Notes: generated by a model from the sequence alone, not told the origin. 64,000 bases of DNA from an uncultured Bacteroidaceae bacterium (GCA_905236065.1 CAJONZ010000087.1:1-64000); one strand, 5' to 3'. Positions 4,681 to 38,986 are shown, counted from the first letter of the stretch. Numbers and translations are program-made.

Positions 4681-4829
4681 CTGGATTTTTCATCACGCTT
4701 CGGTGTAAAAGATTATTCTCGTCGCCATACTTAATATTCTCGTCGGGAATATTAAGTATGGCGACGATATATTTTTTATTCCCGACGAGAATATTTTTGT
4801 ACACTTCGGCGTGGAAAGATTTTTAGCCC
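4681..4829. repeat. 149-bp dispersed intergenic palindromic element, copy A
   Basis: Aligns end to end with 38838..38986; contains a perfect 21-bp inverted repeat 4719..4739 / 4747..4767. Confidence 0.85.
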
Positions 4830-4913: not shown

Positions 4914-6209
4914 GTGAAAAAAGCAATCATCCTCACCTCCCTGCTGATGCTGACAACCAGCGCAATGGCCCTCAAACCTTGGAAGAAAGGGGCTTTTGAG
5001 ACAGGCCGCTACCGTAACCTCTTCGTCGAAATGGGCTATGCACCTTCCGATGTCGATGCCAAGCTTCGGGAAGTGTTCAACGACGTGTTCCATGGCCCCA
5101 ACAAAGTCTATTTTGAGGTGGGCGACACGATGGGATACATCTCAGACATCAAAAACCACGATGCCCGCACGGAGGGCATGTCGTATGGCATGATGATAGC
5201 CGTGCAGTTCGGCGAGAAAGACATCTTCGACCGCCTGTGGCGTTGGAGCAAGCACTATATGCAGCACAAGGACGGGTCGCAACGGGGCTACTTTGCCTGG
5301 AGTTGCAAGACCGACGGCACCCACAATGCCGAGGGGGCTGCCAGCGACGGTGAGCTATATTATATCACGGCCTTGCTCTTCGCCTCGAATCGCTGGGGCA
5401 ACGATACGGGCATCAACTACAAGGCCGAGGCGCAATACATCCTCGACTGCATACAGCCGAGAACCGTGGAGGCACCCAGCCCTGCAACCATGTACCTCAT
5501 TGATCCAGAGACGCAGCTCATCACCTTCACGCCCGACGGATTCGGCCAGCGTTTCACCGACCCCAGCTACCACATTCCCGCCTTCTACGAAGTGTGGGCA
5601 CGCTGGGCCGACGACGGACGCAGCGACTACTGGTGGCAGTGTGCCGTGAAGAGCCGTGAGTTTCTTCATAAGTGTATCAACAGGAAGACGGGCCTGAATC
5701 CCGATATGTGCAACTACGACGGCACCGAGCTTCAGTTCCCACAGCGTCCGGGCATGCCGCAACGCCCACGCCGCAACGGAGGCAGTAACTTTCGTTACGA
5801 CTCCTGGCGTGTGCCCATGAATATTGCGCTTGACTATGAGTGGAGCTGTGCCGACGGAAAATGGCAGCGACGCTATGGCGAGACCCTGCAGGACTTCTTC
5901 TATGCGCAGGGACTCGACACGTTCGTTGACCAATACCGCGTGGATGGCACCCTGCCCGAAGGAGACGAAATCCTTCAGGCGGGTGGGTTCCGCAAACTGC
6001 GCCACAGCATCGGACTGGTGGCCACGACCGCAGCGGCCTCCCTGATGTGTGGCCACAAAAAGAGTAGGGAGTTTGTCGATGCTCTCTGGAATGCCCGGCA
6101 CGAGCCTTTCGACGATGGTTACTTCGATGCCTACTACGACGGCTTGCTCCGCCTCTTTGCCTTCATGCACCTCAGCGGAAACTACCGGATTATTTTGCCT
6201 CGCCAATAA
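4914..6209 (+). CDS. Glycoside hydrolase family 8, probable reducing-end xylose-releasing exo-oligoxylanase-like
   Basis: Signal peptide; DARTEGMSYGMMIAVQFGEKDIFDRLWRW and FAWSCKTDGTHNAEGAASDGELYYITALLFA are GH8 signatures. Confidence 0.9.
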   Translation: MKKAIILTSLLMLTTSAMALKPWKKGAFETGRYRNLFVEMGYAPSDVDAKLREVFNDVFHGPNKVYFEVGDTMGYISDIKNHDARTEGMSYGMMIAVQFGEKDIFDRLWRWSKHYMQHKDGSQRGYFAWSCKTDGTHNAEGAASDGELYYITALLFASNRWGNDTGINYKAEAQYILDCIQPRTVEAPSPATMYLIDPETQLITFTPDGFGQRFTDPSYHIPAFYEVWARWADDGRSDYWWQCAVKSREFLHKCINRKTGLNPDMCNYDGTELQFPQRPGMPQRPRRNGGSNFRYDSWRVPMNIALDYEWSCADGKWQRRYGETLQDFFYAQGLDTFVDQYRVDGTLPEGDEILQAGGFRKLRHSIGLVATTAAASLMCGHKKSREFVDALWNARHEPFDDGYFDAYYDGLLRLFAFMHLSGNYRIILPRQ

Positions 6210-9200
6210 CGACGTTCGTCGAGCCTCTCACCTCAGCCTGGTTGCCACCACCGTAGATGTTGCCGCGGATGTCGGCACCCTTCACCGGCACGTTTGTGCG
6301 TGGCTGAGTGTCAGTAGCGTCCCTGTCTTTGGTCACAAAGTCAATCGTGCCTTGAGTTGCCACGTTGACATGTGTGGAGCCAATGACCTTGGCAGCATTG
6401 CCGCCACCAAACACTTTGTCGATGGCACCTATCATACCCTTGGCATGAGCCGGCAAGACAACCTCGTGGTCACCGACTGTAATCGTTTTACCCTTAAAGC
6501 CTGTCTCGTCATAATCGGAGTTGTTCTCACCAGTGGTGGCGAACTTGCCCACAACCTCGTTGATGTTCACCGACGGATTGCCCACCATCGTAGCACCGCT
6601 ACCATAGCCACCGCCATAGATTGTACCGATGCTGGTAAACGACTTGACATTGACTTGGGGGTCGTCATAAGGAGTCTCGGGACCTGTGCCACTGTCGTCA
6701 GCAGACTCACGTGGCCTCCAGACCTTCTTTTCATTTTCCATCACTTCTTTGTAGCCATAGACAGAGTAACCAGCCTGATTGCCGCCACCATAGAGCTCGC
6801 CAATAACGATAGGCCGACAACCTGTTTCTTCGACATTTACGGTGATGGCACCACGTATGGTTCCGCTCAAGTTATTGCCTCCGAATACACGCTTGAACGT
6901 GCCGTTGGTGATGTTCAGCGTTACGTTGTCATTGATGTCTGCATCCTCTGCACCGCCATAGACGGCTTGCAGACCAGGAATACATGCCATCAGCAACTGA
7001 GCCTCCGCATCCATAGATGCACTCTTGCCACCACCGTATGCCTCGTCGATGCAGAAATCACATAAGCCCATATCGTCAAGCAGCGTTACAGCCGTCTCGC
7101 GCACATTACCCTTTGTGTTGGAGCCGCCAAAGACACGGTGAATCTTACCGGCATAGATATTTATTGAAGCCCTGCCAGAACCATAGACGTATGGCGAATT
7201 TTCTGCCTGTCTCTCTTCTTTGGTGTCAGCATCCGTGTTATCAACCCATTTATTCAGCTCCGAATTATACGTAGAATAGTTCTTGTAACCGACATTGGCA
7301 CCAGGATTGGCCATCGTGACATTATTGATGGTGATATCATCCAATCCATTACCACCGCCAAAGAGCTCCTCAATCTCGTATGTGCCGTTGACGGTGACGT
7401 TGGTAGCAGGCACAGAAGCCGCATTACCACCACCATATACCTGACGGATGCTGGTCATGTCACAGCCGTCGATGATGACGCGAGCCTGAACAGTATCAAC
7501 TACGGATTTCACATCAGGCATAAAGGCTGACAAATCGCCGCCGCCATAGACTGCTGACATGTGGTAGGTATGGTCTGCCTTGTTGTCACTGTCCAACTTG
7601 TCGCTTGCTGTTCCTTCATGGCCTTCATACCCTACCGTCTTATAGATGTGAACGGTAACCGCATGTTGCGGGCTGCCGTTGAGATTGTTGCAACCAAAGA
7701 TATTACCTTTCACCACACAGTTGTCAGGCCACGTCACAGTTCCACCTTCGCCTGTCACCTTCTTACCATTCAGTTCCACCAGCACATCGCCATAGACCTT
7801 GGCTTCCACTGCTGAAAGTGGCTCGACAGCCGGTTGGTAGCCTTCCTGTCCCTCTGTCCCGACGGCATCCTTGCCCGCCCGTGCCTGGCGACCCAGTCCG
7901 CCACCATAGACATTATGGCTGATAGTGCCTCCGTGCAGATTCACCGTCGTGTTAAAGGTCTTGGCAGAGGCGTCGTCAGTCACATCGGTATTGGTGTTGG
8001 CCAGTGCGCCGCCGCCATAGATGTCGATTCCTACGGTGCCACCGAGCATGTTGACCTCAACCTTTTCTTTGACGATACCGGCCTCGCCGCCGCCATAGAC
8101 GCTGCCCCAGACAGTGGCTCCAGGATTGATGTTGACCAGGGTCTGCCGGGCATGGGCAACGGTCTCGGTGTCGTCGAGGTTGCCCTTGGGGCCGCCATAG
8201 ACATTGCCGTAACTGCCGCCGTCGGTACCAACCTGTCCGCCATTGATGTTAATCGTGGTCTTGCCCGCATCCACAACGCTAAGGCTTCCTCCCATGGAAC
8301 CCATGGAGCCGCCACCATAGATGTTTCGCAGTATGTGGCCGCCATTGATGGTGACCTCGGAGGTGCCACGCACAAGCCCCGCCGTGGGGTTGTGATGTTT
8401 CGTCGGATCTTCACCAACGGTATAGGTGTCGGTACCACAACCGGCACCATAGATGTTGCCGCAGTCGTAGTTGCCCGTTGCACTGGCATTACCGAGGGTT
8501 CCTCCATAGACCTTAACCTGCGAATTTTGCAGGTTATGACCATTCTCTCCACCTCCAAAGACGGAACCCAAGATTCTTACCGAAGCACTGGTGTTCTCTT
8601 CTTCGCTATCTCCATTCTTACCAATCTCGACCAAGGTGTTTTTAACCCATGCCACACGGTCGAGGTTCGGTGTAGTGTTAGGATTGCCTTCTCCGCCACG
8701 TGAAGCACCGCTCACCATACCGTTGTCGTGGCCGTTGATACCAATCAGACCACCTATAATCTTCACGGTAGCCGTACCGGTGTTGGCATCAGCCATTTCT
8801 GTCGGCATCGAATAGGCATCATAGGTGAAGGTACCCACAGAACCCAGGGCACCGCCGCCATAGATGTTATGATAGATTTTAGTCGTTTCGGTTGTGCCGC
8901 TAATCGTGACATCGGCATTGCCCGTGACCAGACCCGCCTTGACATCATCAAGACTGCCCTTACCGCCACCAAAGACGTTGCCCATGCGGTAGCCGCCAAA
9001 CTTTGTGTACCCGCCTTCTTTCAGTTCGTTCTTGCCTATCTCTCCAGCACTGACCGTAACCTGTGTGCTGCCATCTACCCAAGCCAGTTCACCACCGCCA
9101 TAGACGCTGGCCCATACATGGCCTGTAGTAGATTCGCCACTCTTCATTTCAACCAGAGTGCCGCCCTTCACACGACCGGCCCATTCTTTCACGCCGACTG

Positions 9201-12200
9201 CGTTCGCTTCCTCAACAGTAGGATAGGTTTCTGCCACATTGGCATCACTACCATATCCGCCTCCGAAGACACTGCCGAAGGTATATTGCGTAGCACCTGT
9301 ACCAACCTCAGTACCGATGGTTCCGCCTGTGACGGTGATTTTCGTTCCGTTCATCACAGCGCCTAACTCACCTCCGCCATAGACATTACTCTTAATGGTG
9401 CCGCCACTGATAGTAACCTCTGTCTGCTTGGCCTTGCCAAGGTCAGCGCAATGATTGAGCACTGTCGATCCATCCAGCGCATAGAGACGTCCCATAGCTC
9501 CGGCAAACACGTTGCCGCCCTTGGTATGCATCAGACGGTTCTTGTCAGTATCACTCGTACCGAACTCAGTATTTGGAATATGATTATCAGTCTTCCACGT
9601 ATTCCAATCAGTTGCAACCCAGCTGTCAGTGTTTTCAGGAATGATATATTCATGGCTGTTACCGATGGTGCCGCCGCTAACGTTAATGGTTATATGGCCG
9701 TGAGTCACACCCGTTGCATCAACAGGTGTACCAAAGTTACTGTCAGATGTATCCCAGTTTTGATAATCCTGATTTTTTTCATCAGGAATCAGCTTGCCAT
9801 AATTTGTATGATTTGCAGGAACAAGATAAGTTCCTACTGAACCTAAACGTCCACCGCCATATATACTTCCCAACATGGTACCACCGCTGATGGTAACAGC
9901 TACATTTCCCTGAACGACACCAGCTGTCAGGGCATCACCACCGAAACCACGACCACCACCGAACACATTACCATCGACATACGAAGTACCCCATGTTCCG
10001 ATATGACCACCGCTAACCGCCACATTCACATTTCCAAGTACGTGACCGTCCTCACCGCCGCCGAAGACGGAACCAAAGATAGTTCCACCAGAGATGTTGA
10101 CATCCGCAGCCCCAACATTGGTGAAGGTATTAAAGTGGATACGCTGGTCACCCTTGCCGGCTCCAAAGAGGTAGCAGGTCACGGGATGCCCAGCAATCTG
10201 AGTCAAAGTACGCGGCACACCAAGCGTACCTCCTGTCATCTTTATATAACAAGTACCGTTCACGTCAGTCAATTCATTTCCGCCATAGACAGAAGTCAGG
10301 ATATGCCCTCCGGTAATCGTCACATGGGTATCACCTTCTACCAGTCCGGAAGACCTTAGCCATTCGTGCACATTCTCTCCTGTATAAGCGAAATATCCAG
10401 AACCGCCACCAAACACATTACCATAGAACGTATGACCATCGTAACCTGTTGTTGAGGCTGCTCCCATTGTCGTCGCATCATAATTAGCATCATCGGCATG
10501 CATATCATACGGCAGTGCATCATGAGGAGAAGTAGGATCGTACGTCCAGCTATTACACTCCGGCATGGCTTGTGCGGCAGCAGAAATACCGCTTGCAGAA
10601 CCCGTAGTAACAGCAGTTACAGCATCAGTCCATTGTGCTTCAGAATATGCTTTCGTTTGTCCGCTACCTAAGCCTATCTGTCCACCATATATCCTTACAT
10701 CAGTATTATTACCCACACGGCCTGCCTCACTACCGCCATACACACCACCACAGATAAGAGGTGCCTTGGTGATATGATTTATGGAGTCGTTTGCTGTTGC
10801 ATAACCTTCCTCATAAGTATTCTTGATGATTACCCGTGTGTCATGGACGTAGGTCTTGAAATCGACATCCACATCAACGTTCGGGTCAGCTGTCTCACCT
10901 CGACCTGCACCAAACACATAGCCGTAGTCATCAGGCATTACCATTCCTAATGGACCTACCTGACCACCACTCATGGTAACCACACATCTTCCGGTATTAG
11001 CCGTCCATGAGTCTGGCTTACCCATACAATCGCCAGCATGAGTATGACCTGAATCTGTTTTAGACTTTCTGGTGAATGTACCCACATTACCCAGCTTACC
11101 ACCACCATATATACGGTTTCTTACATAGCCGCCAGCCATGTTGACTGCGGTATTTCCCTTCACATCGGCATTGTTACCGCCGCCAAATACCATACCAGTG
11201 ATATAGGCTCCCTTTGCAGCCACCTCGTACATACCCTTGTGGGGGTCGTCATCGTCTGTAATCTCCGTATAATTACCAACTCCCAAATAGGTGGGTTCTG
11301 TAGTGAAATAGGCTTTTTCTGCAGTACCGATGTTGACCGTAGTATTACCTTCGGTATTAGCCTCATCACCACCACCGAAGACATTACCGATAATACCTAA
11401 ATGGTTGGCATTAGCATATTCTGAGGTTTGAAGTCCCAACTCCGTCATCATGGCAGGAACGCCTATGGTTTCATTATCGCCATACAAACCCTTAACCATA
11501 TTGATGTTCACCGTCGGATTAGCATACATCACACCACCTTCTCCCAAACCACCACCGAAGACATTACCGATATAGGTACAAGAGATGATGTTCAATTCGG
11601 GCTGAGCGTATGGGAATGTGTGGGTCGCGTCTGTTGCGGGATTGGCCACAGCAGGATTTGAGTCATCGGCTGATGTTCTCGGCTTCAGAATCTTCTTGCC
11701 AGTTTCTGGATGAACCTCATCACTTTCGTAATAGCCGAAGATGGAGTAGGCGGCCTCGTTACTACCCAGATAGAGATTGTCAATCTTGATGGGCTGACAA
11801 CCCGTTTCCTCCACGTTCACCGTAATCTTACCCTTGATGGCACCGCCCAGGTTGTTACCACCAAATACCTTGCCGAAGTGGCCGTTGGTGATGTTCAGCG
11901 TGATGTTACCATTCACGTTGGCCTCGTCGGCACCAGCAAACAGCAAATCAACTTTTTTATTTGGTTGACAGCCCAAGGTTATGTTTACATCGCCATCGAT
12001 GTCCGCATACTTGCCGGCACCCACAACCTTCGTCACCTCCAGTTCGCAATACTTAGGGTCTTCAGGGTCTTTAGGATCACTCGTCTGGTTGATGGAACCC
12101 TTGATGACACCCTTCTGGTTGCTGCCACCATAAACTTCGTGAATCAGTCCACCACACAACCACGTGTTTGCATTACCCGTACCATAGGTCGTAGTGCCGT

Positions 12201-15200
12201 GGTCGAGCGTACCCACATCGGCACCCGGATTTTCTCCGTAGCTCGTAGCATCCTTACCATTACCACCACCGAAGACGTTGTATATCTCGTAGGTTCCATA
12301 AATCTCAATGTTTGTCTCTGGCACAGCGGCTGCATTGCCACCGCCGTAAACAGTGTTGATGCTGGTGCGGTCACAACCGTCGATGATGACCAGGGTCTTA
12401 GAACCTGTACTTCCGTCGTATGGAGTTTCGGGCACATAAGCCGCCTCGTTGCCACCACCATAGACTGCCGTGACATCATAGCGTCCTTCTACCTTAGCAT
12501 TCTCCACAAGTGGTTCTGCAGTATTTGCTATCTGTGTAGCCGCAGCGTTCTGCGTAGCATATACATGCACCATTACATCGCCCTTGGGCGTTCCGTTGAT
12601 GTTATTACAACCGAATACCCTTCCAACAACACAACCACTTGCATTAGGTGTTGGCGTACCGGTTGTTTCAGGTTTATGGGTTGTGCCGTTTATATTAGTC
12701 GTACCGTTCAAGTCTACCAACACATCACCCCAGACGTATGCAGGTTTTCCTGTTGGATTCAACTCTGTACCAGCTTCGCCCAAGGCACCGCCAAAAATCT
12801 CTTCCACGACACGTCCGCCAGTTGCACGGACGGTTGTCGTTGCACTTGCAGAAGTTTTTCCAGCAGCCCAGCCTCCAGCACCTTCATTTGCAGAAGCGTC
12901 CCAGTTGCTTGTCTGAGTATCAGCCAACGCACCACCGCCATAGACGTCTTTCAAAATCAGACCACCCGTCATGTTTACGGCTACACTCTCCTTGACTGTA
13001 CCTGACTCACCACCGCCAAAGACTGAGCCCGTGATAAGCTGTACCGTCTTTTCTCCATTATCTGCAGTAGGTGTTGTTGCGTAACTGATGTTAACCTCTG
13101 TCTCTCTGACGTTAGCAAGACCAGAAGCGGCAATACTAATTCCATACTCACCACGAGCGGCACCAAATACATGTCCATTTCCGTCACCATCATAGCCGAT
13201 ACGACCACCAGTGATGTTCACAGTTGTCTTACCACTATTTGCAACAGCGTCAGTACCTACAGAACCCATGGCACCAGCACCGTAGACATTATGAACCACA
13301 TAACCACCACTGACAGTCACGGTTGTATTTCCATAGACAACACCAGCCAATGGGTTGTAAGAGTCACCCTCGCCATCTGTAGCAGAATGACCTTCAGGTA
13401 TCGCACCTGTATAATATTTATCCGTACCGCAACCGGCACCATATACATTACCGCGATAAGGATATGCTGCGCCACCATCTGAATCTTCCGCGTTGTCTAT
13501 ACCAATCTTACCGCTGTAAATGTAAACTTCGGCATCGTTGAAGACATGTCCGTTTTCACCACCACCATATACAGAGCCTTTAATGGTTGGAGTTGTAAAA
13601 TCAGTGCCGGAGCCTGATGTTCCAATCTTTACTTCAGTATCATATACCCAAGCCAGCTTATCATGAACAGATTCTGGAGCACCCACGTCACCACGAGACG
13701 AACCGAATACCATTCCGTTATTCTTACCCGTTGTTCCGATAGTACCGCCGGTAATGGTGACAGAACAAGCACCCGTATTTTCGGTTGCTAAGGCAGTAGG
13801 CATCCCCGAGGCATCATAGGTAAACATACCCACTGAACCATACGCGCCTCCACCATACACATTATGCAGGATGGTTCCGTTACTTATATTAATATTTGTA
13901 TTGCCCTTGACCAGACCGGCAGCAACATATTTCTGAGCGGCACCATTATGTTCAGCGTCACCCTTACCGCCACCATAGACGTTACCGAAATATGCACCAC
14001 CATTTCCAGCTGTTCCGATGGTACCACCGGTAACCTTCACGTCTGTATCATCTTGTACATAACCGCTCTCGCTACCGCCAAAGACTGAGCCTTTGATTAC
14101 AGCACTTCCGCCGATGGTTACATCGGTTCCGGTAACCAGGGCAAGTGATTGCAGGAACTCTAAATATTTGTCCTCTGTGGTAAAATATTCCCAGACATAG
14201 GCGTGGTTATCTTCATAATAATTCCAAGTAGTTCCTGGTTCACCCGTATGCTTCGAGCTATTATAGTCAACCATACGCTTAGACCAGGTCGTACTAGCGC
14301 CTGAGTTGTAAACATAATTAGGTACTACTCCCTTACCGGCACCAAACACGTGGCCTACAGACTGTATTGCTCCTTCATCCGGTCCGATTAAAGCACTACC
14401 CTGAACGACGACGGTACATTTTCCTCCACGTCTCGTCTTATAAGGCATTTCATCAGGCAAACTTTCAGGAGCGGTAGGCACTTCTGATTCGACACCAGTA
14501 CAAAGATCAGTAGGAATGCCTTTTACCCAATATCTACCCACGGTTGCTTCCTCACCACCACCATATACATTACCTCTTACCTTACTACTACCTTGAACAG
14601 TTACACTACTATTACCACGCACCAAAGCGCCATATCCATGTGTCTTTACACCGGCACCGCCACCAAATACGTCATGTTTGATTTCAGGTGCAAACGGACC
14701 TTCTTCTTCTCCTACTCCTACTCCAATCTTCACCTGAGTATTCCATTCAACACGACCAACCTCACCTCCACCATAGACACTACCATTCACAGTACCGTTA
14801 CTGATGGTAACCATTGTTCCTCTATCCTTATTCTCTTCTGAACCAGGATCTTCGCATTTGCCGGCATCATTAATACCCACCATAGCCTTAGCGCAGGTGA
14901 ATTCATCAGCTTTACCCTTACCACCACCATAGACGTTCTCAGTAATGGTACCACCACTGATATTCACTCGCGTATTTCCACTAACATTCGACTCATCTCC
15001 ACCGCCATAGATGCTCTTGCCCACGGTGGTGGTACCGTTGATGGTAAGTATTACATCACCGCTAACAGCTCCCAGGTTGACAAGAGGTATCTCTGTGTAG
15101 AAATAGTTCTTTCCGTCACCATTGGGGTTTAATATTGCTGGCGATGAAGTACTGAGGGTAGTTGTGCCAAATTCTGTTTCATTAGTCCAGTAATACTTTG

Positions 15201-21174: not shown

Positions 21175-21192
21175 ATTTCGTGGGTTTCGTTG

Positions 21193-22599: not shown

Positions 22600-22602
22600 A
22601 TC

Positions 22603-28600: not shown

Positions 28601-31600
28601 CCGACGGTGTACTCCGTGACGCACTCATATTCCAGTTTGAAGTAGGCACGTTCGCGGTTCGACAGGTTGTGATACTCCTGCAGGGTGATGCGCGACTGCA
28701 GGTTGTAGTAGTCCGTGCCGTAGTTCGTGACGTTCAGTTCGCGGTAGCCATCGACCATCGAAAGGTTGCCACCACCGTAAAGACCACCTACGTGCTCCGT
28801 GCCCACGGTGATGAAGTCGCGGTGATACACGTCGTAGAGCGTGGCCGTGGTATTGCCGTACACCGTGGTGGCATTGGCATAGTGCGTATCGGTGTTCGAT
28901 GCCACATTGCCGCCGCCGAATACCGCATTGTGAATTTGTACGCCACGTTCCCCCTTGGCATCCTCCGTGACGAGGTTGGTCCATTTGGCGTCGGCCTTGT
29001 TCTTCGGCAGTGTGTTCAGATAGTCGGTCGGCACGTATTCATAGGGCTTATACTCTCGGTTGTTGTAACTGACGTTCGTACCGTCCGCCTTGATTTGCAG
29101 GTAGGGGGCAATGACCACCTTGCAGTCCTCAATCAGATGGTCGCCCGTACCATCATTATAATAATAGTAATAGTGGCCAGGCGACCCTGTGGTCACGCCG
29201 TTGGCCTTGTCGGCTTTCGTCTTCGCGTTCTCGTAGCCCTTGCTATACACATAGCCCAGGTCGCCGCCGCCGAACACGTTGCCATAGCCTTCGGCCATGC
29301 CCGCCTCGGTGCCCACTTCGCCACCGTGGATATACACCTCCGTCTGTCCGAAGGTATAGCCGTCGGTGTAGAGGTCGCTGTTGCTGCCGTAGCCCAGAAG
29401 GTTGTAGCCCTTGCCGCCGCCGAACACGTTACGGCCAACGTGGCCGTTGTACATCTCGATGTGCGTTTTTCCCACCTTGTAGATTTCCTGGAACTCACGC
29501 ACGTGGTTGGCTGCGCCGCTCTCTTTCGTGGAACCACGGCCAATGGTGGCAATCTCGCCGCCGCCATGTAGGCTGCCGCGTATCTCGCCACCCCAAATGG
29601 TGATGTAGCTCTCATCCACACTACTGCGGGCATCGTAGCCGCCGCCAAACACGTTGCCACAGTCGCGCAAGCGGTTGTCACCGGCATATTTCTCGTTCTC
29701 GAAGTACGTCTCGTCGTTTATCTTCTCCTCAAACTTTTCCGTGTCCGTATTATACGCATAGCCGATGTAGCCGTTGTTCAGCGTCAGGTATGCTTTTCCA
29801 TACACTGCACCGCCCTCGCCGCCGCCGTAGGCATTGCGCTGTACGGTGGGCAGACCGCAGTAGAAGCCATAGTCCGCCAACGTTGCATCCGCCTTCACCT
29901 TTCTCATTTCTGCCAGCAGGTCGGCATCGCTCTGGTCCCTGCGTATGCCGATGACCACGTGCGTCTCGCCGCCGATGTCGTTTGTCGCCGGGTCGTGAAT
30001 GTCCGCATCCACTTCCACATCCTTTCCTTCTATGGTGACCGTCTTCTTGTGTCGGCCCACGCTGCCCTTCCATCCGCCGCCATAGACATTGCGGACGGTT
30101 CCTCCGGCAATGTAGGCATTGGCCGAGGCCATAAAACCGCTTCGGTTCTCGCTTGAATAATCCTTTGCTCCATGAAGGTCCTGCACGGCACCGCTCGTGC
30201 CCGCCGCATAGATGTCCTTCTTCACCGTGCCGCCCAGCAGGGCAATGTACGTGGTGCCAGCCACCACGGCATCCTCACCCAGACCGCCGCCGTAGGCATA
30301 GTTCTCCACCGTGGCTCCCTTGTTGATGATGACGTTCGTACAATATTTATAATGTACCAACGCCAAGTCCTCCTCTGACAGGTCGCCGAAGTCTCGGTCG
30401 TCCATCTCGGCCACTCTCGCCAGCTCGTTGGCAAGGTTGGTATTGGTGTTTTCCCAATAAGTGGTGATTTTCGGTTTCTTAGTTATGGGGTCGATGACGG
30501 GATTGCCAGTCCCTGGGTCGATAATGGGTTGGGGGTCATAGCCGCCGCCTAATACCCAGGCCGCTTTCCAGTCCTCATCCGAAAGCGGTTCCCCTGCTTT
30601 CGCCGTACCTGCAGGCCATGTGTACGTAGGCGTTGGTAAGTCCATGTACGTCTGTACGCTCTCCGCATTATGCACCTTGCCAGCCTGTCCACCACCATAC
30701 ACCTCATACACCTGTGCACCGTTGTTCAGGAGGATTTCCGTATATTCCGCCCACGTGTTTGCACCGTGCCCAGCACCGTATGCTGTGCCCAGCGTCATGC
30801 CATACTTCCAGTGCCTTTGCTTCATCGGAGCGTCAATCAGGATGTGCCCATAGACCGTGCGTCGCTCATTGTTGTTTCCACCATAGATGGCACCCGTCAG
30901 TCGGTCGTCTCCGACCTCCTTTTCCGTCGATTCGTCGATTCTTAGCGGGTCGCATCGCAAGACTGCATCCGCACTGTGCCAGTTGACGTTGGACTCATAG
31001 ACATCACAGGGGCAGTACGTGTTCGTGCCATACGCTCCACCGAAGATACTGCCAATCTGGATGGTGCTGCCCGTTGGCACATTGACCACCGTGCGACGGG
31101 TGACACCCTCCTGGTAGCTACCACCATACGCGGCAGCTATCTGTCCGCGAATCAGGTCGATCACCGCCGAAACCGTTTCGGGCGCGGCCTTTGCCGCTTC
31201 GGGCGACTTGCTCATGCCCAGTCCGCTCCACGCACCTGCGCCAAACACGTCCATGTGTTGGTAATTCTCCATTTCCTGCGGAATGTCGATGAGTATGTAG
31301 CTGCGTTCCTGCATCACGTCACGGTCGGCATCGGCAGGGTAGCCCTGTCCGGCACCATAGACGAGGTTTACCTTGTTGTTCGGATTGCTTTTCAGGGCAC
31401 TGCTCAAGGTGGGGCGGAAATTGACGAAAGCGGCACCCATGCGAGGCTTCGAGTAGCCCTCCTGGGCCGAACCGTCTTCATCGAAGTAGGCCCTGTATGT
31501 TTCGTCCTTGTAGTCGTAGGTACCATAGCAGCCGCCGAAGATTCCCTCGGCACGACCCTGGGTATATTCCATGTAGGCCGACACGTTCTTGGCCACGTCT

Positions 31601-34551
31601 GCGCTGTGTATCTTCGAGGCCACTTCGCTGCGAATGTGGTCAGCTGTGTTGAAGTCTGCCTTGCCAAGAATCTTGCCGCCGAGGTCGTTGCCGCCGTATG
31701 TATAGTCGCGGATGTAGGGGAAGCCCTCGCCCACGCTGCCGTCGTCGCCGATGTGTCGTCCGACGTAGGTCTCGGTGTGGCCCAGGATGTCGGCGTTACA
31801 AGAGCCGGCGAAGGTGTCGAACACACGCCCTTTGCCCAGGTTGATGGTGGTATTGCCGCAGATGGGGCCTAAGAAGCCGCCGCCGTAGATAAACTCTGCC
31901 TCGGCCATGTTCTCGCTATGGTCAGCCTGCTTCGACACACCGTCGTAAGGGCCTCTCAGGTTGACGGTACAGCTGTATTTGGGATTGTACTTGTAGGTCT
32001 TCCCATTGAACGTGTAGGGGTCGCCCTCGCCGTCGTCAGATTTGCCGATGACTCCCTCCTCGCTGCCGCCGAATATCTGGAACACGTAACCCTTGTTGAG
32101 GTTGATGGTGGTGCTGCCCCATATTTCGGTCTCCTTACCCTTGCCGCCTCCATAGACGTTCAGGCCCTCGCCAAGTACGTCCATGCCTTGCTCGTCAAGG
32201 ATGACACCTGTGCGCCGTTCTTCAATATGGTAGTCTTCCAGCGCAAAAATATCCTCTCCATAGAGGATGGCTTCGCCCATTTCGTCCTCCTTGACCTTGT
32301 CGAAGAGTACGTTACGGTCCATCAGCGTCGCATTGATATTGAGGGTGATGTTGCCGTTGACGATGCCACTGGTATAGCAGCCGCCATAGATGTTGCCTCC
32401 CTTCAAGCGGCGTTTCAGGTCGGCGGCATCGCTCGTTTCCGTGGTTTTCCCTTCGTCGGGCACCAAAGTGGTTACAGGGGGAGTGTCTTCGCCCGTGGAG
32501 GAGGAGATGGTGTTCCACTCCAGGAGTTTCGACTTGTCATCCTTGTCTTTCCAGCGCATGGGGCGCATCTCCAAACCGGAGAGGTTCAGCGTCAGTTTGT
32601 TGCCACTGGCGTCAGGGTCGCCGATGACACCCCCTACGTATCTGGCGTTGTAGGTGCCTTCTGGGACGATGGCGCTGTTGCAGCCGCCTACCAGCTTTTC
32701 GAAAATGATGACAGAGTGGTTGAAATTAATGGTGCTTAGGCCGTTGGTTTTGATGCTACCCACGTTTCCGCCGCAGTAGAACGAGCCAAAATAGGCCGTG
32801 TATTTTTCATAGTCTGGGTCGAACACCACCTCGGGCTCGATGTCCAGTTCACAGCCCTGCATGTAGGTGGCGAACTGGGTGGGGTCGGCCTTCAGTTCCA
32901 TCTTGTTGAAATCGTAGGAAATCCCCTCTATCGTCACGTTGCCGGCTATCTTGCTCAACAAGGCCTCCCCAATCATGTTTTCACCGTTATTGCCTAAGAA
33001 TACCTTGTCGGCATAGACGTAGGCACCAATCTTCAGCTGGGCTGTGGCCTCACCGTTCTCTGAGCGCAGGGTGGCACTGTTGCCTCCACAATAGACAGAG
33101 CCGCCGATGAAGGTGGGCTTTAACTCCGTTCCAATCAATCGGACGGACACCGCCTCGGCGTTGGGGCGGAACTTGCAAAGGGCTTCTGCCGACTGCTGGC
33201 CCGTAAATGCAGTGCCTTCCGGCAGGCCTAAAATCTCGTTGACATCGTAGAAATAGTCGCCGTAGAGGAGGGTCGATTTCTCGTTGGCATTCTCGGCTGT
33301 CGGCTTGAACAGGGTGTTGTCGGTGTAGGAGTATGATCCGTTTCCACCGCCATAAACGTCGCCGAGGATGCTGCTGTGGATGCCTACGGCGGTGCCGCCA
33401 TAGACGGTGCCGCTGATGTCGTTGCCACCATAGACGTTGTTGATGGTGCCATCGCCGATGTGTACGCGGGCGGCATAGCCTGGGGGGCAGAGCACACCTT
33501 CAATGGTCTCTTCCTGAATGAGTTTCCCTGGGTTTACGTCGGCCATGCGGCAGCCGCCAAAGACGTTGTTTACCTCCATGTCGGCAGATACGATGGGGAG
33601 GTAGAGACCCTTCTCGTAGGTCATGGCTCCACGGTTACCGCCGCTGTAGAGGTTACGTATCATTCCTTTTTTCAGGTGCCAACGGGGACGAATGCTCATT
33701 TCAGCCTTGTTGTTGCCGCCGAAGACACGCGAGAACTGGTAGTCGGGACTCGTGGCCACGTTCGCGCCGATACCACCCGCACCGCCTAGTTCGTAGATAC
33801 CCATGTTCAAGAGGCGCTGGTTGGTCAGCTTGCTGATGGGCTTGTTTTCCCCATCTTTTTTGAAGGAGCCGTCCTCGTTCCTCTCATAGATGTTAAAGGT
33901 AACCGCACTCGCATTGTCAATGCAGATGTCGGTGGCCTCTGTAACCGTTGCGTTGTTGCCGCCGCCGTAGAGTAGCACGCAAGAGCCGCCGCGCATCTCA
34001 ATGTAAGCTTTCCCCACTTCGGGGCGAACCATGCCCTTGTAGGGACTGTCGTCCGAAACGTAGTCATAGTCGCCGTTGCCGCCGCCGAACAATTGCCCGA
34101 TGTAGGCACAATAGGGCTGCGTGGTGGCAGGGGCTCCCGGTTCGGGGTCGGTGACGGCCTCAGTCCTCTCTTTCGTGGTGAGTACGAAGGAGTTGTAAGT
34201 ATGGTCAATGCCGTTTTCTGTGGTTTCCGTCAGTCCGGCGGGGAAGTTGATGGCGTCCGTGCCGATGGTTCCTGCAATGTCGTTGCCGCCATACACGTAG
34301 TTGATGAGGATGTCGCCACTCATGTGTTCGCCGTCGATGTTGACGAACGACCACCCGCCGACGTTGGCTTGCCGCGCCCCTCCAAAGACACTGCCGTCGA
34401 TGTCGGCAGAGCGAATCACCACGCTGGAGTTGCCACTCGTCGGGCCTTCATTACCACCGCCATACACGTTGCCGCCAATGAGTATCTGTCCCTGCACTGC
34501 CGTGGCAATGAGGAACATCATCAAACTTACTATGTGTGCTCTAATCTTCAT
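22603..34551 (-). CDS. Giant (3982 aa) surface Gly-rich solenoid-like protein with a second repeat type, GLUG-like region and T9SS type A-like C-terminal sorting domain
   Basis: Signal peptide MKIRAHIVSLMMFLIATAVQGQ followed at once by GGNVYGGGNEG...; C-terminus LNIYTKRKKIVVVSSLSEATEVRIINTAGITLTRFRIEPGEAIETPVPMSGVFIVRTDDGKYQKKIAVK*. Confidence 0.85.
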   Translation of the reverse strand: MKIRAHIVSLMMFLIATAVQGQILIGGNVYGGGNEGPTSGNSSVVIRSADIDGSVFGGARQANVGGWSFVNIDGEHMSGDILINYVYGGNDIAGTIGTDAINFPAGLTETTENGIDHTYNSFVLTTKERTEAVTDPEPGAPATTQPYCAYIGQLFGGGNGDYDYVSDDSPYKGMVRPEVGKAYIEMRGGSCVLLYGGGNNATVTEATDICIDNASAVTFNIYERNEDGSFKKDGENKPISKLTNQRLLNMGIYELGGAGGIGANVATSPDYQFSRVFGGNNKAEMSIRPRWHLKKGMIRNLYSGGNRGAMTYEKGLYLPIVSADMEVNNVFGGCRMADVNPGKLIQEETIEGVLCPPGYAARVHIGDGTINNVYGGNDISGTVYGGTAVGIHSSILGDVYGGGNGSYSYTDNTLFKPTAENANEKSTLLYGDYFYDVNEILGLPEGTAFTGQQSAEALCKFRPNAEAVSVRLIGTELKPTFIGGSVYCGGNSATLRSENGEATAQLKIGAYVYADKVFLGNNGENMIGEALLSKIAGNVTIEGISYDFNKMELKADPTQFATYMQGCELDIEPEVVFDPDYEKYTAYFGSFYCGGNVGSIKTNGLSTINFNHSVIIFEKLVGGCNSAIVPEGTYNARYVGGVIGDPDASGNKLTLNLSGLEMRPMRWKDKDDKSKLLEWNTISSSTGEDTPPVTTLVPDEGKTTETSDAADLKRRLKGGNIYGGCYTSGIVNGNITLNINATLMDRNVLFDKVKEDEMGEAILYGEDIFALEDYHIEERRTGVILDEQGMDVLGEGLNVYGGGKGKETEIWGSTTINLNKGYVFQIFGGSEEGVIGKSDDGEGDPYTFNGKTYKYNPKYSCTVNLRGPYDGVSKQADHSENMAEAEFIYGGGFLGPICGNTTINLGKGRVFDTFAGSCNADILGHTETYVGRHIGDDGSVGEGFPYIRDYTYGGNDLGGKILGKADFNTADHIRSEVASKIHSADVAKNVSAYMEYTQGRAEGIFGGCYGTYDYKDETYRAYFDEDGSAQEGYSKPRMGAAFVNFRPTLSSALKSNPNNKVNLVYGAGQGYPADADRDVMQERSYILIDIPQEMENYQHMDVFGAGAWSGLGMSKSPEAAKAAPETVSAVIDLIRGQIAAAYGGSYQEGVTRRTVVNVPTGSTIQIGSIFGGAYGTNTYCPCDVYESNVNWHSADAVLRCDPLRIDESTEKEVGDDRLTGAIYGGNNNERRTVYGHILIDAPMKQRHWKYGMTLGTAYGAGHGANTWAEYTEILLNNGAQVYEVYGGGQAGKVHNAESVQTYMDLPTPTYTWPAGTAKAGEPLSDEDWKAAWVLGGGYDPQPIIDPGTGNPVIDPITKKPKITTYWENTNTNLANELARVAEMDDRDFGDLSEEDLALVHYKYCTNVIINKGATVENYAYGGGLGEDAVVAGTTYIALLGGTVKKDIYAAGTSGAVQDLHGAKDYSSENRSGFMASANAYIAGGTVRNVYGGGWKGSVGRHKKTVTIEGKDVEVDADIHDPATNDIGGETHVVIGIRRDQSDADLLAEMRKVKADATLADYGFYCGLPTVQRNAYGGGEGGAVYGKAYLTLNNGYIGYAYNTDTEKFEEKINDETYFENEKYAGDNRLRDCGNVFGGGYDARSSVDESYITIWGGEIRGSLHGGGEIATIGRGSTKESGAANHVREFQEIYKVGKTHIEMYNGHVGRNVFGGGKGYNLLGYGSNSDLYTDGYTFGQTEVYIHGGEVGTEAGMAEGYGNVFGGGDLGYVYSKGYENAKTKADKANGVTTGSPGHYYYYYNDGTGDHLIEDCKVVIAPYLQIKADGTNVSYNNREYKPYEYVPTDYLNTLPKNKADAKWTNLVTEDAKGERGVQIHNAVFGGGNVASNTDTHYANATTVYGNTTATLYDVYHRDFITVGTEHVGGLYGGGNLSMVDGYRELNVTNYGTDYYNLQSRITLQEYHNLSNRERAYFKLEYECVTEYTVGSKTYHVGDKISEEDYHKLDTTHKSETYWKQYGFCSIYAGRLLNTIQRADLCGVYGSRMVLQGAKDRVAEVGEKVDYTINRVGELSLNKQVSLAGDTGDDAVHGNYFGIYSIVHYLGNMTSDVRFVSKYIDQDGIEDPSKSFYTYKEPQPKGTWRNRGTCHNQVALASGVFLELTTENSTPEHKDYGYITGVVELDLINVKREIEGGGFVYAKNEHRLPVFYEDMDYVILSEYNQDKDGVRDAAKTFKRYRYAADAKPVNAESWPASGGFVAETGKEYTEKEIQTSGNFIHHSKRIVDDCYPVNNRYLMADDGRSEAHYWYIKGSVYVYDQVVSAYTGSATAYSKTVHLPLTITAAANGQLKLLNVKPNRYAYYYKTGGVIGTGENAEDKKVWVNQQADAYELNDVITWWDWQNLPESEQAFFVEETYVNCMACQVDGVKYSTGEYVMLPTDITAFKAANHTITDYEGNELTDKDGNKYTTNAALIDDLFRSSNNVSHNTGYVLTFDMDTPEVWNDYYTVTTDTEGHVNEKIKASEYKTLLKNAADEAARQAIIDGYTEGPTFSPKETKVLGHRQYTEGQILTEAEYDQIDGSDTDAHKEYFETAYVANRTIRYTYTYQDENDQNVSVVKTINPGTAISQSEYNSLTAEEKTAFAVARVCAKTVKLAEEKYLIKGDLLSDTEIATLKTTYSSLSSEIDDAMTNAYICTKDEECGGRKYLSNTNYSAIQSWCSLSETDRAYFTFNYDALNLLADPNYSVDPDSNDDAKSTKTAYHQPYSDEVSVEYRAVFKATSDKTSYTYNNGTITLTDGQSMTNTDFETYVRNDKRYYTHVNRISDFYTIDDETYFYVANKNFVYDGTPYGTGQVVSHDVYQHRTSDVDQVVPTQNADKFYYCYEAHEEGNTSVAKGTQISEDAYKALTDDQKYFVIQGKEPEETTTLYVTRESDIKDVTKEKIITVVYQYTYYETDDDGDIRLTNELHVVNVHLQLESGVPTIGTLENPPTVLPGNAVGLKAPEVTPGAYEVLTNGWEIFDNKDDADHHRNGVPFTNNSTPVYWYQNRDHYIAFYSKTYLGKTYSNYVPLSVANYHDLADIMERHKDNHLYIDRADVDRPCKIYINNYSTLPDDDARKGKNGLDELKALYDLSIGTSMDDHTALGSYINGCSNLDIILRTDLDHSGSDWTSIGASTCFGGTLHGDGHTISGLTQSLFNKLCGNVYNLGVTGSFAGAGVAETGEGYVENCWVKTTGTPTAGTKAVFGNPSRLEGTQLVNCYYPENNAYSETPHDRGNARKMPEKAFYDGEVAYNLNGFYLNKRYYDHNTEWEGTKNEYDYILANADGTLPQNAESTQAVTTLTSYPSGYAVYLPQSTRLTPRLGYVEHRYYDGDFRYADGTIPETFNIRRQEHEYIDDEDDKAIDITWAPIWPDDYLFFGQKLTYGHVEGHTHQPLPAVINKIEGRLLTNALDNRVFRAPAYFQNSHIQVAHFNPNAVFAKENSDQTLSVHKNMTAIDFTGGNGDVSGGYKQGILTTAPYNHVENGAFFPPLLDDNGLTSFRNIGLTKNLLAYTMTTTDAAKKTDAVVSDILHDFPYEETNTETYRTVAPWDTYAHWKNAHGHWVQWTETGSKYIAQNDHLLIDKQDFNAPIAYTFEEDKRMWYQRQPGNFVSRATGWEGISIPFKAEIVTTQQKGELTHFYKGSTYGHEYWLREFKGGTTEGSVFKASFQFPDPNGEDGKKTYTNTFLWDYYYSFNGYDDENLDDYQENDAVNTYYKDAREYAAYPRLTEGTPYLIGFPSETYYEFDLSGRFTPLHTSTPVPEKLDAQVITFASKTGIGISVSDTELEAKAVTFDGYTYRPSYLNKNISDAYTLKSDGSQYEKIDAGDTDNVGAFRPYFVVSGGGGKQRYTRSIVFSYEPSELKGHDDRDLDDEQVGSLNIYTKRKKIVVVSSLSEATEVRIINTAGITLTRFRIEPGEAIETPVPMSGVFIVRTDDGKYQKKIAVK

Positions 34552-34585
34552 TTAGGTGAGGGGTTATGGGGTGAGAGGTGAGGGG

Positions 34586-35635
34586 TTATGGTTTGATTGT
34601 CGGGTCTTGTGCATCGGAATCATCCAACACATAGACATAGGTGGAATTGATGGAAATCTTGACCGTCCGCTTCTGTCCGTACGTCAGTCCGCCAATGCGC
34701 GTCAGGCGGTTCTCTGCCGTGCGGTCTTTACTGATCAGCTTCGTGCCGTCGGAAGTATAGATGTCGTAACGGCAGGTCAATGTCAGATAGTCAGCTTCCG
34801 TGAACACAGGGGCGAACTGGGCATCGACCAGGCTTGCGTAGCTAGTTGTCAGCCACTGTCCTTGTTCTTTCAAATAGATGATCTGCTCTTGGTTGCCGCT
34901 AGTGGAGATCCAGCCAACATTCGTGATGGGGTTTTCGCCCGTGTCGTTGCCTCTGACTTGCAGGTGGGCACTGACCGTCTCCACTTGGTGGGTCGTAAGC
35001 CTTATCTCCTTCAGCTTGATTTTCCTCAGTGTGCTGTACTCGGCATCCACCTTGAACTGGAAGTCGAGGCCGGCATAGAAGTGGTCGAACAGCAGGTAGA
35101 TATAGTTGCCGTTGGCCGATGTCTCTCCCACGTAGTCGAACTTCCCGCGTCGGATGTCCGTACCGCCGATGGGCCCCGTGTCCTTGTCGCCTTGCAGTAC
35201 ACCCGTGATGACGCAGGGGTCGTTACCGACCAGCGGACTTAGGTTGTTCAGCGTCAGGTTAATGCCATTGTCTGTGTACGCGACGCTATGATTGGTGCCC
35301 GCCTTCTGCATGTAGCCATAGACTTTATACGACTTGCCTGCCTCCAGTTCGAGGGAAGAGCGCCATTTCCCACTTGTGCGGTCGTAATTCAGCGTACCCG
35401 CGGTTTCCTGTTCGCCCGAAGTTAGGAACAGCTCGATTTGCATGTTTTCGTCCGGCACAAGGGCCTCATAGCCAGGAGGCAAGGCACGAGTAGTCCCTTG
35501 CTCCACATCTTTGAATGCCTGGACGTATGGCACGACATATACTTCCGTCACCTTTTCCGGCTCCGGAGTCTCATCTGCCGTGCATCCAACCAGTAGCACT
35601 GCTATCAGGAAATATATATAGCGTTTAAACATCAT
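34586..35635 (-). CDS. Mfa2/FimB-like fimbrial anchor lipoprotein
   Basis: Lipobox LLVGC; LYLLFDHFYAGLDFQFKV-type segment and SINSTYVYVLDD-type ending; adjacent to a fimbrillin-like gene. Confidence 0.6.
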   Translation of the reverse strand: MMFKRYIYFLIAVLLVGCTADETPEPEKVTEVYVVPYVQAFKDVEQGTTRALPPGYEALVPDENMQIELFLTSGEQETAGTLNYDRTSGKWRSSLELEAGKSYKVYGYMQKAGTNHSVAYTDNGINLTLNNLSPLVGNDPCVITGVLQGDKDTGPIGGTDIRRGKFDYVGETSANGNYIYLLFDHFYAGLDFQFKVDAEYSTLRKIKLKEIRLTTHQVETVSAHLQVRGNDTGENPITNVGWISTSGNQEQIIYLKEQGQWLTTSYASLVDAQFAPVFTEADYLTLTCRYDIYTSDGTKLISKDRTAENRLTRIGGLTYGQKRTVKISINSTYVYVLDDSDAQDPTIKP

Positions 35636-35638
35636 TCT

Positions 35639-36883
35639 TTACCAATTATACACCTCATGTTCCAGGTCTTCGGCCTGTTCCCAAGGGCCGGTGGCCATCT
35701 GCACACCGTCAATCAGGAAGCCTTCCACCTCGGGCTCTGTGCCCGTTCCACCAATCCAGGCGTTGATATACAGGTGCTTGCCGTGCTGGTAACCCTGTGG
35801 GTAGTCGCTCAGTGTGAAGGTATGGGTGCGGGCGTTCGACAGCGGCTCCTCGCCGCCACTGACCGTCACTGTGAATTCTATGGAAATCTGCGCCGTCTGC
35901 AAGTGCCCGTAAAGATGTTCCGGGATGAAGAACACGCCGTGGCCGGTGTCTGTCCAAGGCTCCACCGTTTCTTGCTCGGTGGTGCGGTGGTACAGGGTGG
36001 CGGGCAGTCCTTCCGTCAGCGTGACCGACCGCACGGTGGTCGTGGTTCCGTCCTGCAATTGCCAGTTCGGGTCGTCGGTCTCATTCCAAAGCACCAGCCG
36101 TCCCCGCTCGGTCAAGGTGTAGTCAAGGCTCACCTTCGTGAGCTGAACCGTCATTTCCGTATAGCCATGAGCCGTCCATTGTTCCTGGAGCCAGGTGACA
36201 AAGTCGCCGCCACATCGCAGGGTGACACGGTCGCCGATGCATCCCAAGGCATGGTAGAAAATCATCAACAGGTGCTCGTTGACGGCCTGCTTTTTCTGGT
36301 CGAGCAACGGTCGGGCATAGAGCAAATCTACCTGGCTGTTGACATCTGGGTGCAGCCGGTATTCAAGCCAGGGGTTTCCCTTCTCTTTCTGCGTGCTGAA
36401 GCGATACAGGCACACGTCGGGCGCACTGCGGTAGGGAGCGTAGCCCATGAAACTTACGTAGTGCGGAATTTCGCCCGTGTTGATGTTCGGATTGATGTTT
36501 CCCTTTCCGTTGGGCCAGTATTTCACAGGGGAATAGACCCACGCATCCTTATCTTCGCTCCACGACACATGCTCGTTGTACATGTAATCGGGATTGACGT
36601 TGCTTTCCAGGTATCTGTACAGACCCGTGTAGCAGGCATATACGCCAAAGCCACCGGCGTCCTTGAGGGCATTAGTGCTGTTAATAGCATTAAAGGCGCG
36701 GGTGCTTCCAACGCCATCATCAGCCATGCTTGCCGTAAAAACTACGGCATCTTCGGGACTTGGTTCCAGTCCCTCGTTGTCGTTAGCACAGGCCGCAAAC
36801 AACAGGCAGGCTGCTATATATACAACACTTATTTTTAACTTGTCTTCAAACGTACACTGCATAGCATCCATTATAGCATCCAC
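35639..36883 (-). CDS. Fimbrillin-family (Mfa-like) lipoprotein
   Basis: Lipoprotein signal LLFAACAND; STRAFNAIN...FGVYACYTG...WSEDKDAWVYSPVKYWPN...VSFMGYAPY is typical of Bacteroidales fimbrillins. Confidence 0.8.
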   Translation of the reverse strand: MDAIMDAMQCTFEDKLKISVVYIAACLLFAACANDNEGLEPSPEDAVVFTASMADDGVGSTRAFNAINSTNALKDAGGFGVYACYTGLYRYLESNVNPDYMYNEHVSWSEDKDAWVYSPVKYWPNGKGNINPNINTGEIPHYVSFMGYAPYRSAPDVCLYRFSTQKEKGNPWLEYRLHPDVNSQVDLLYARPLLDQKKQAVNEHLLMIFYHALGCIGDRVTLRCGGDFVTWLQEQWTAHGYTEMTVQLTKVSLDYTLTERGRLVLWNETDDPNWQLQDGTTTTVRSVTLTEGLPATLYHRTTEQETVEPWTDTGHGVFFIPEHLYGHLQTAQISIEFTVTVSGGEEPLSNARTHTFTLSDYPQGYQHGKHLYINAWIGGTGTEPEVEGFLIDGVQMATGPWEQAEDLEHEVYNW

Positions 36884-36938
36884 TGCACTTCGTGCAATCG
36901 TTGGGGGGATAACAAATTAAACATAATCAACAGAGCGG

Positions 36939-36946
36939 CAAAGTTA
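36939..36946 (-). promoter_or_regulatory. Candidate -7 box (TAACTTTG) for the fimbrillin-giant locus
   Basis: Minus-strand TAACTTTG about 55 nt upstream of the 36883 start. Confidence 0.5.
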
Positions 36947-37010: not shown

Positions 37011-37047
37011 CAAAACCGCCGGGGCATCGCTATGGATGTCCCGGCGG
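37011..37047 (-). terminator. Rho-independent terminator after the AAA/PD-(D/E)XK gene
   Basis: 12-bp hairpin ccgccggggcat/atgtcccggcgg (one mismatch) followed on the minus strand by a T-run. Confidence 0.7.
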
Positions 37048-38706: not shown

Positions 38707-38714
38707 CAAAGATA
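38707..38714 (-). promoter_or_regulatory. Candidate -7 box (TATCTTTG) for the AAA/PD-(D/E)XK gene
   Basis: Minus-strand TATCTTTG about 25 nt upstream of the start. Confidence 0.5.
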
Positions 38715-38837
38715 GTCAATTTAAATGATTATCCACAAGAATACCACCAATTTTTAAAGTTCCGCTGAGCTCTTAGGTTCTGTGTAACCGAAAAAAAAGT
38801 CTCACTTTCTGTGCATAGATAGAAAAGGAAAACAGCA

Positions 38838-38986
38838 CTGAATTTTTCTTCACGCTTCGGTGAAAAAGATTATTCTCGTCGCCATATTTTTTATTCTCGC
38901 CGAGAATATTAAATATATCGTCGTCATATTTTTTATTCTCGTCGAGAATATTTATTTGTAGTTTGGCGTGGAAAAAGTTTTATCCC
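38838..38986. repeat. 149-bp dispersed intergenic palindromic element, copy B
   Basis: Aligns with 4681..4829 over its full length; contains ttattctcgYcgagaatat palindromes. Confidence 0.85.

Follow-up and report, generated by a model that had tools for sequence, protein, structure and literature searches.

Hosts of RAYT (TnpA-REP) genes usually hold more than 100 REP copies. RAYTs are Y1-HUH proteins of low copy number that spread vertically as well as horizontally, and in some genomes REPs flank the gene. In subclass 2.4, REP units are also found inside tnpA itself, between the HUH motif and the catalytic tyrosine (PMC6006769). The operons of Mfa1/FimA-type fimbriae of Bacteroidales, a second point of comparison, contain fimbrillin-like and Mfa2-like lipoproteins, usually with minor tip components. 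DprA/SMF proteins and ShosA, the latter part of a defence system, have a Rossmann/SLOG-like core of ≈140 residues. The locus described here resembles each of these: a RAYT-like protein with a DprA-like C-terminal domain, referred to in the following as RAYT-DprA, is encoded between two giant genes of a fimbrillin-type operon.

The stretch analyzed, referred to as the window, comprises 64,000 nt (GC ≈54%) of a 2.73-Mb draft genome (130 contigs, 88% complete) from an uncultured Bacteroidaceae bacterium, a Prevotella-like inhabitant of gut or rumen. Its relevant features are:

37071–38681, AAA-ATPase(-like) and PDDEXK_9 gene, upstream of the fimbrillin gene, with its own box at 38714
37016–37047, minus strand, terminator-like hairpin CCGCCGGG...CCCGGCGG plus TTTT, between the AAA-ATPase/PDDEXK_9 gene and the fimbrillin unit (from sequence)
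36939–36946, minus strand, promoter-like −7 box TAACTTTG ahead of the fimbrillin gene (sequence scan)
35639–36883, minus strand, fimbrillin-like lipoprotein (FIM), PF13149 Mfa_like_1, lipobox LFAAC
34586–35635, minus strand, Mfa2-like anchor lipoprotein, homologues of which lie directly before GIANT1 in relatives
22603–34551, minus strand, GIANT1, secreted protein of 3982 aa with YGGG-type repeats and a weak T9SS sorting domain
21193–22599, minus strand, RAYT-DprA, 468 aa, Y1-HUH transposase domain plus DprA-like C-terminal domain
6190–21174, minus strand, GIANT2, 4994 aa, CHB_HEX_C/Fn3-associated domains followed by YGGG beta-solenoid-like repeats, natural C-terminus

The original prediction had read the five minus-strand genes, with their very short gaps, as one apparent transcription unit. 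All five ORFs were present, in the order FIM, Mfa2-like, GIANT1, RAYT-DprA, GIANT2, separated by 3, 34, 3 and 18 nt; the gaps of 3, 3 and 18 nt agreed with those predicted, and the 34-nt gap between the Mfa2-like gene and GIANT1 was missing from the earlier list. This gap (34552–34585) is filled by a CCCCTCACCTCTCACC repeat, which is resembled by an 890-nt non-coding, CTCACCTCTCACC-repeat-rich region between GIANT1 and RAYT in a relative (L169, 9110–10004). The predicted single promoter-like box, TAACTTTG, fits the Bacteroidetes −7 consensus TAnnTTTG and was the sole intergenic match to it between 6190 and 37015. A TAnnTTTG scan from 36939 to 6190 gave no second intergenic box, and the remaining matches within 6190–36883 were all intragenic, in about the number expected by chance. 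Since the upstream AAA-ATPase/PDDEXK_9 gene has its own box and is followed by the hairpin and T-run (37047–37016), it is plausible that the fimbrillin gene is the first of the unit. The box, the hairpin and the absence of other intergenic boxes make a single transcript of ≈31 kb, from fimbrillin through GIANT2, plausible.

The fimbrillin matched PF13149 with E=1.4e-6 (29 bits, cut-off 27). Homologues of the Mfa2-like protein, 28–33% identical, lie directly before GIANT1 in six genomes (G127, G233, G155, G010, G235, G113). GIANT1, whose orthologues are 36–56% identical, matched the T9SS type-A CTD weakly (14.7 bits, below the cut-off). The last 20 nt of GIANT2 overlap a convergent GH8 gene; a truncation or frameshift at this point was ruled out, since the same terminal repeat, GNVYGGGN.A.VTG.T.V.IGK, closes the protein in relatives, and GIANT2 is therefore complete. 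Its C-terminus was confidently modelled as all-beta and had no significant match in a structure search against the PDB. Judging by family membership, the fimbrillin, the Mfa2-like protein and the two giants probably form a surface operon that combines a Bacteroidales pilus-like anchor with two giant secreted proteins. The operon is like those of Mfa1/FimA-type fimbriae in its two lipoproteins, but where minor tip components would usually follow it encodes two giant secreted repeat proteins, and its anchor protein matches no Pfam family, Mfa2 included.

Within RAYT-DprA, the following elements could be placed:

22315–22323, minus strand, HUH motif H93-x-H95 (MPEHMH)
22171–22187, minus strand, REP-like palindrome ATCAGGGAAAACCTGAT, reverse orientation, 6-bp stem, HUH–Tyr linker
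22038–22056, minus strand, REP-like palindrome CTTGCGGTTTCCCCGCAAG, forward orientation, 7-bp stem, HUH–Tyr linker
21910–21912, minus strand, predicted catalytic tyrosine Y230 (YIRQNPR)
21325–21717, minus strand, DprA/SLOG-like C-terminal domain, residues ≈295–425, from Foldseek (pLDDT of the AlphaFold model mostly >90)

The window copy scored weakly by sequence: it reached 20 of 80 bits (E=4.6e-4, below cut-off) against NCBIfam REP_Tyr_transpos, did not match Pfam Y1_Tnp, and found no PDB sequence either as a single sequence or through its family profile. Its identity was secured despite these scores by the family profile, the AlphaFold model and Foldseek. Relatives occur in 89 of 301 genomes of the family. 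Pfam Y1_Tnp matched 11 of 21 family members (best E=3e-4), and the 21-member profile recovered two-domain relatives across the order together with ordinary Bacteroidales Y1 proteins of ≈200 aa (MPNHIH, WQ, YIxNNP), to which it ties RAYT-DprA over positions 5–214. In the AlphaFold model (pLDDT 78, core >90, disordered linker 141–201), the N-terminal part resembled the IS608/ISDra2 transposases and TnpA-REP 4ER8 by Foldseek, and the last 140 residues resembled H. pylori and S. pneumoniae DprA (E=6e-4) and ShosA (E=1.7e-4), both with probability 1.00; the DprA match covers a partial fold, with a TM of ≈0.4 by target length. Pfam DNA_processg_A gave only E=0.12, in one member. H93, H95 and Y230, the last equivalent to the YIxxNP tyrosine of known RAYTs (PMC6006769), were invariant in 38/38 members, and by its motifs the protein appears catalytically intact. 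A dN/dS of 0.12–0.32 indicates that it is maintained as a protein. The predicted domesticated type of HUH/Y1 protein is thus borne out by intact motifs and purifying selection. The IS200/IS605 hallmarks of terminal hairpins outside the ORF and multiple near-identical copies were lacking, since the neighbouring genes are only 3 and 18 nt away and the genome has a single intact copy. Elsewhere in the window genome (L074, G000:C85:34113–34610) is an internally deleted RAYT-DprA remnant without the Tyr part. A Pfam Y1_Tnp match on contig C10 was rejected as a sister copy because its YIIHQKEHH motif fits subclass 1.2.

No family in Pfam, NCBIfam, PADLOC or PHROG covers the combination of HUH and DprA-like domains, a BFVD search with the RAYT model found nothing, and DprA is absent from the main Y1-HUH survey (PMC6006769); by a literature search limited to open PMC papers, the fusion is apparently an undescribed domain architecture. 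RAYT-DprA has the Y1-HUH fold and the PxHxH and YIxxNP motifs in common with known RAYTs, especially subclass 2.4 and the Bacteroidetes subclass 2.6 (PMC6006769), and its lineage likewise combines low copy number with vertical and horizontal spread. It differs from them in the added C-terminal domain, in having LF..GYCD in place of the conserved Trp (WQ), in a palindrome foot of GTGC/GTGT rather than the canonical GTAG/GTGG, and in the low number of REPs in the window genome. The C-terminus has a core like that of DprA/SMF and ShosA, and to the eye its S-x-R-I-A-x-G-E segment is similar to SGxAxGID of DprA. Unlike DprA and ShosA, however, the domain is fused to an HUH enzyme, and nothing in these results points to a role in transformation.

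As in subclass 2.4, the window ORF carries REP-like palindromes, here an inverted pair, between the HUH motif and the tyrosine; they lie between alphaC and beta4, whereas the variable part of subclass 2.4 lies between beta3 and alphaC. Perfect hairpins with a stem of at least 7 bp were counted in the linker that joins the HUH and Tyr helices; one or more were present in 65 of 77 members, compared to ≈7 expected from codon shuffling. Hairpin density was 4.8/kb in the linker and 0.9/kb elsewhere in the ORF, and an inverted pair was the commonest arrangement (25/77). The hairpin types of the lineage include CTTGCGGTTTCCCCGCAAG, the window's own, and CAGCGGTTCACCCGCTG. As with known RAYTs, REPs flank the gene in some genomes: tandem copies of AGTGCCCAGCGGTTCACCCGCTGG... 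surround it in L164 and L170, in L167 and L168 hairpins of the same type lie on either side, and the tandem copies are absent from the related empty sites L114, L117 and L119. The window gene has embedded palindromes only. The core GCGGTTYNCCCGC was present in 1–32 copies in nine relative genomes (6–32 in eight of them; reversed control, 0–1) and in two copies in the window genome, one of them inside RAYT itself, so that no active REP population is visible there, although these counts rest on a search with a single core sequence that would miss divergent REPs. Two other candidates for the genomic REP were discarded. A 24-nt tandem repeat in the RAYT linker was found nowhere but in the gene itself. 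A palindromic REPIN/MITE-like element of ≈126 bp with TTCTCGNCGAGAATA cores, two copies of which bracket the operon (4681–4795 and 38827–38952), occurs at ≈25 places in the window genome and in none of 30 relatives; nothing supports it as RAYT's REP, since it is confined to this genome and its sequence has no relation to the ORF palindromes.

The adjacency recurs in other genomes. GIANT1–RAYT–GIANT2 was found in G010, G235, G166 (g11), G139 (g13), G173 (g21) and the window (g1), that is, in genus groups g1, g11, g13 and g21, and probably in G086 (g21), where a contig breaks; in G127 (g1), RAYT lies one junction further on, between two GIANT2-type genes. The original prediction had also suggested that RAYT is a fixed member of the operon, a view it regarded as incompatible with absence from the closest relatives, and this part was not supported. 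The giants most similar to those of the window (G233, G155) are directly adjacent, ≈30 and 4 nt apart, with no RAYT between them. In many genomes the giant–giant slot is empty or holds unrelated genes, and the RAYT lineage is also found at many other loci, which shows that RAYT is not fixed. Of 79 loci classified in named GTDB genomes, 19 adjoin a giant, 8 lie beside ubiE (ubiE–aroE) and the rest are scattered, in a set biased to the window's own sequence because it comprises the best 80 of 527. Many of the scattered copies have their own intergenic region, which does not favour a general preference for insertion inside operons. One recurrent address, between ubiE and aroE (L040, 9374–10681; also G081, G113, G155 and others), is vertically kept in many species of the window's genus.

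On the RAYT tree, the basal branches of which are poorly resolved, a giant-operon root was favoured by 7.4 log units (log-likelihood −19.5 versus −26.9), making the giant operon most likely the ancestral home of this lineage. RAYT presence required 10 changes on the GIANT1 tree (shuffled labels: mean 13, minimum 8), and RAYT and GIANT1 distances were modestly correlated (Mantel r=0.37, p=0.0016).

In two genome pairs, RAYT and a short flank form a sharp island of 84–99% identity between diverged giants or flanks (33–69%). For L164/L170, RAYT plus flanks were 84–95% identical within surroundings of 33–69%, and the RAYT dS of 0.23 was far below that of housekeeping genes (0.75–1.57), which indicates that RAYT moved between species. 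Between L164 and L167, dS was 0.06 for RAYT and 0.28 for GIANT1, both younger than housekeeping genes (0.7–1.1, L164/L168), indicating movement of a block. In L169/L182, RAYT (0.05) was close to housekeeping (0.13) and GIANT1 had diverged (1.74), which indicates that the giants were exchanged around a stable RAYT. By these comparisons giants and RAYT both recombine, and neither is simply the insert.

We consider it probable that an operon for a pilus and giant adhesins, itself mosaic and horizontally exchanged, has long carried the RAYT-DprA gene, selected and with its catalytic motifs intact, as a dispensable passenger. Fold and motifs, recurrence together with patchiness, embedded REPs, the identity island and purifying selection are the observations behind this reading. 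Because the synteny recurs and the nearest giants lack RAYT, "conserved but dispensable resident" is a fair description of it. Counted against a passenger are the REP core present only twice in the window genome, the divergent palindrome foot, the replaced WQ, and the L169/L182 pair, in which the giants and not RAYT were exchanged.

Could RAYT-DprA instead be a fixed functional member that serves the surface system, for example by diversifying or regulating the giants through inserted REP hairpins? The old, recurrent adjacency, the tight gaps and the ancestral home in the giant operon speak for this, as do basal RAYTs inside or at the end of what appear to be other fimbrillin-type operons of rumen Prevotellaceae (L173, 5546–18410; L180, 482–11371), a call made by eye, as these operons gave no fimbrillin Pfam match. 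The original prediction had suggested that RAYT acts on the repeat-rich giants. In the window this found no support: the longest exact DNA repeats in the giants are 18 and 25 nt, there are no long tandem arrays, giant repeats did not differ between genomes with and without RAYT, and recombination of DNA repeats by RAYT was rejected on these grounds; repeat shuffling is likewise unsupported, since the window's giants show no excess of hairpins or palindromes. A weaker form of the claim survives in a related lineage, where GIANT1 carries RAYT's own REP-type palindromes in frame: in L164, L167 and L168, five sites contain them or decayed versions of them, share a single frame and encode VPSGSPA-like peptides, and L170 has one at a different site. 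Gaps in the alignment with L170 suggest insertion rather than loss as the direction. This supports a spread of REPs into the neighbouring GIANT1 in one lineage, not a general mechanism. That RAYT-DprA is an in-operon diversification device, copying REP units in frame into the adjacent giant adhesin, strikes us as quite improbable; if true, a domesticated transposase would tune a surface protein. Fixed membership in general is only slightly less doubtful, given the nearest giants without RAYT, the 10 changes on the GIANT1 tree compared to 13 with shuffled labels, and the same lineage at housekeeping loci.

It is similarly unlikely that the gene is accessory or defence cargo, a solitary DNA-acting gene carried for an anti-phage or genome-conflict benefit. 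Other occupants of the slot, at the GIANT1–GIANT2 junction or a neighbouring one, lend this some support: DUF1016/YhcG (G096, and after RAYT in L151), HU-HIG (G141), AAA-PDDEXK_9 (G157) and, at the next junction, Abi_2 (G104). In three genomes from other Bacteroidales families (L232, L234, L238), distant two-domain relatives lie within type I restriction-modification loci or next to them, and the DprA-like domain also resembles ShosA. On the other hand, RAYT-DprA has no PADLOC or PHROG match, the REPs in the ORF and its flanks point to RAYT biology, and the close clade is mostly found outside defence islands. The slot also holds an Lnb-like membrane protein (G119, and G133 by similarity), a GxGYxYP protein (G152) and a 23S-IVP-like protein (G208, below cut-off). 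Occupants so varied indicate that the site is permissive, and tight gaps by themselves therefore carry less weight as an argument. A chimeric gene in which a DUF1016 N-terminal stretch is fused to an Lnb-like membrane protein lies between RAYT and GIANT2 in L147 (2488–3834).

The fragmented draft and the patchy slot might suggest an ordinary insertion of recent date, or an assembly accident, without any biological link. This is very improbable, given that about eight genomes from four genus groups, each assembled separately, share the gene order, that 19 of the 79 classified GTDB loci adjoin a giant, and that the ORF is intact and under selection.

For a long-term passenger, the following course would fit. 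The RAYT-DprA gene would be read from the transcript of the giant operon, and its product would recognize, cleave and rejoin single-stranded DNA at its cognate REP hairpins, which also occur within the ORF, with the DprA-like part perhaps binding or handing over the single strand. To spread, the gene would rely chiefly on horizontal exchange, in which a small unit of gene plus flank enters either the same slot or a new one; in some relatives, REPs presumably mobilized by it would have multiplied around RAYT and inside GIANT1. RAYT-DprA may also have a function in pilus or giant biology.

New are the fusion of RAYT and DprA-like domains, with REPs embedded in the gene, and the long-standing link of this gene to an operon for fimbrillin and giant proteins. 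The architecture is widespread in rumen Prevotellaceae, and named records with related genes come from rumen or gut members of that family. It provides a rare case of a RAYT lineage that has long had a favoured genomic address within an operon for surface proteins. Clade members are present in the non-MAG genomes of Xylanibacter brevis ATCC 19188 and Prevotellaceae bacterium MN60, and in such named relatives the host role of domesticated RAYTs becomes testable.
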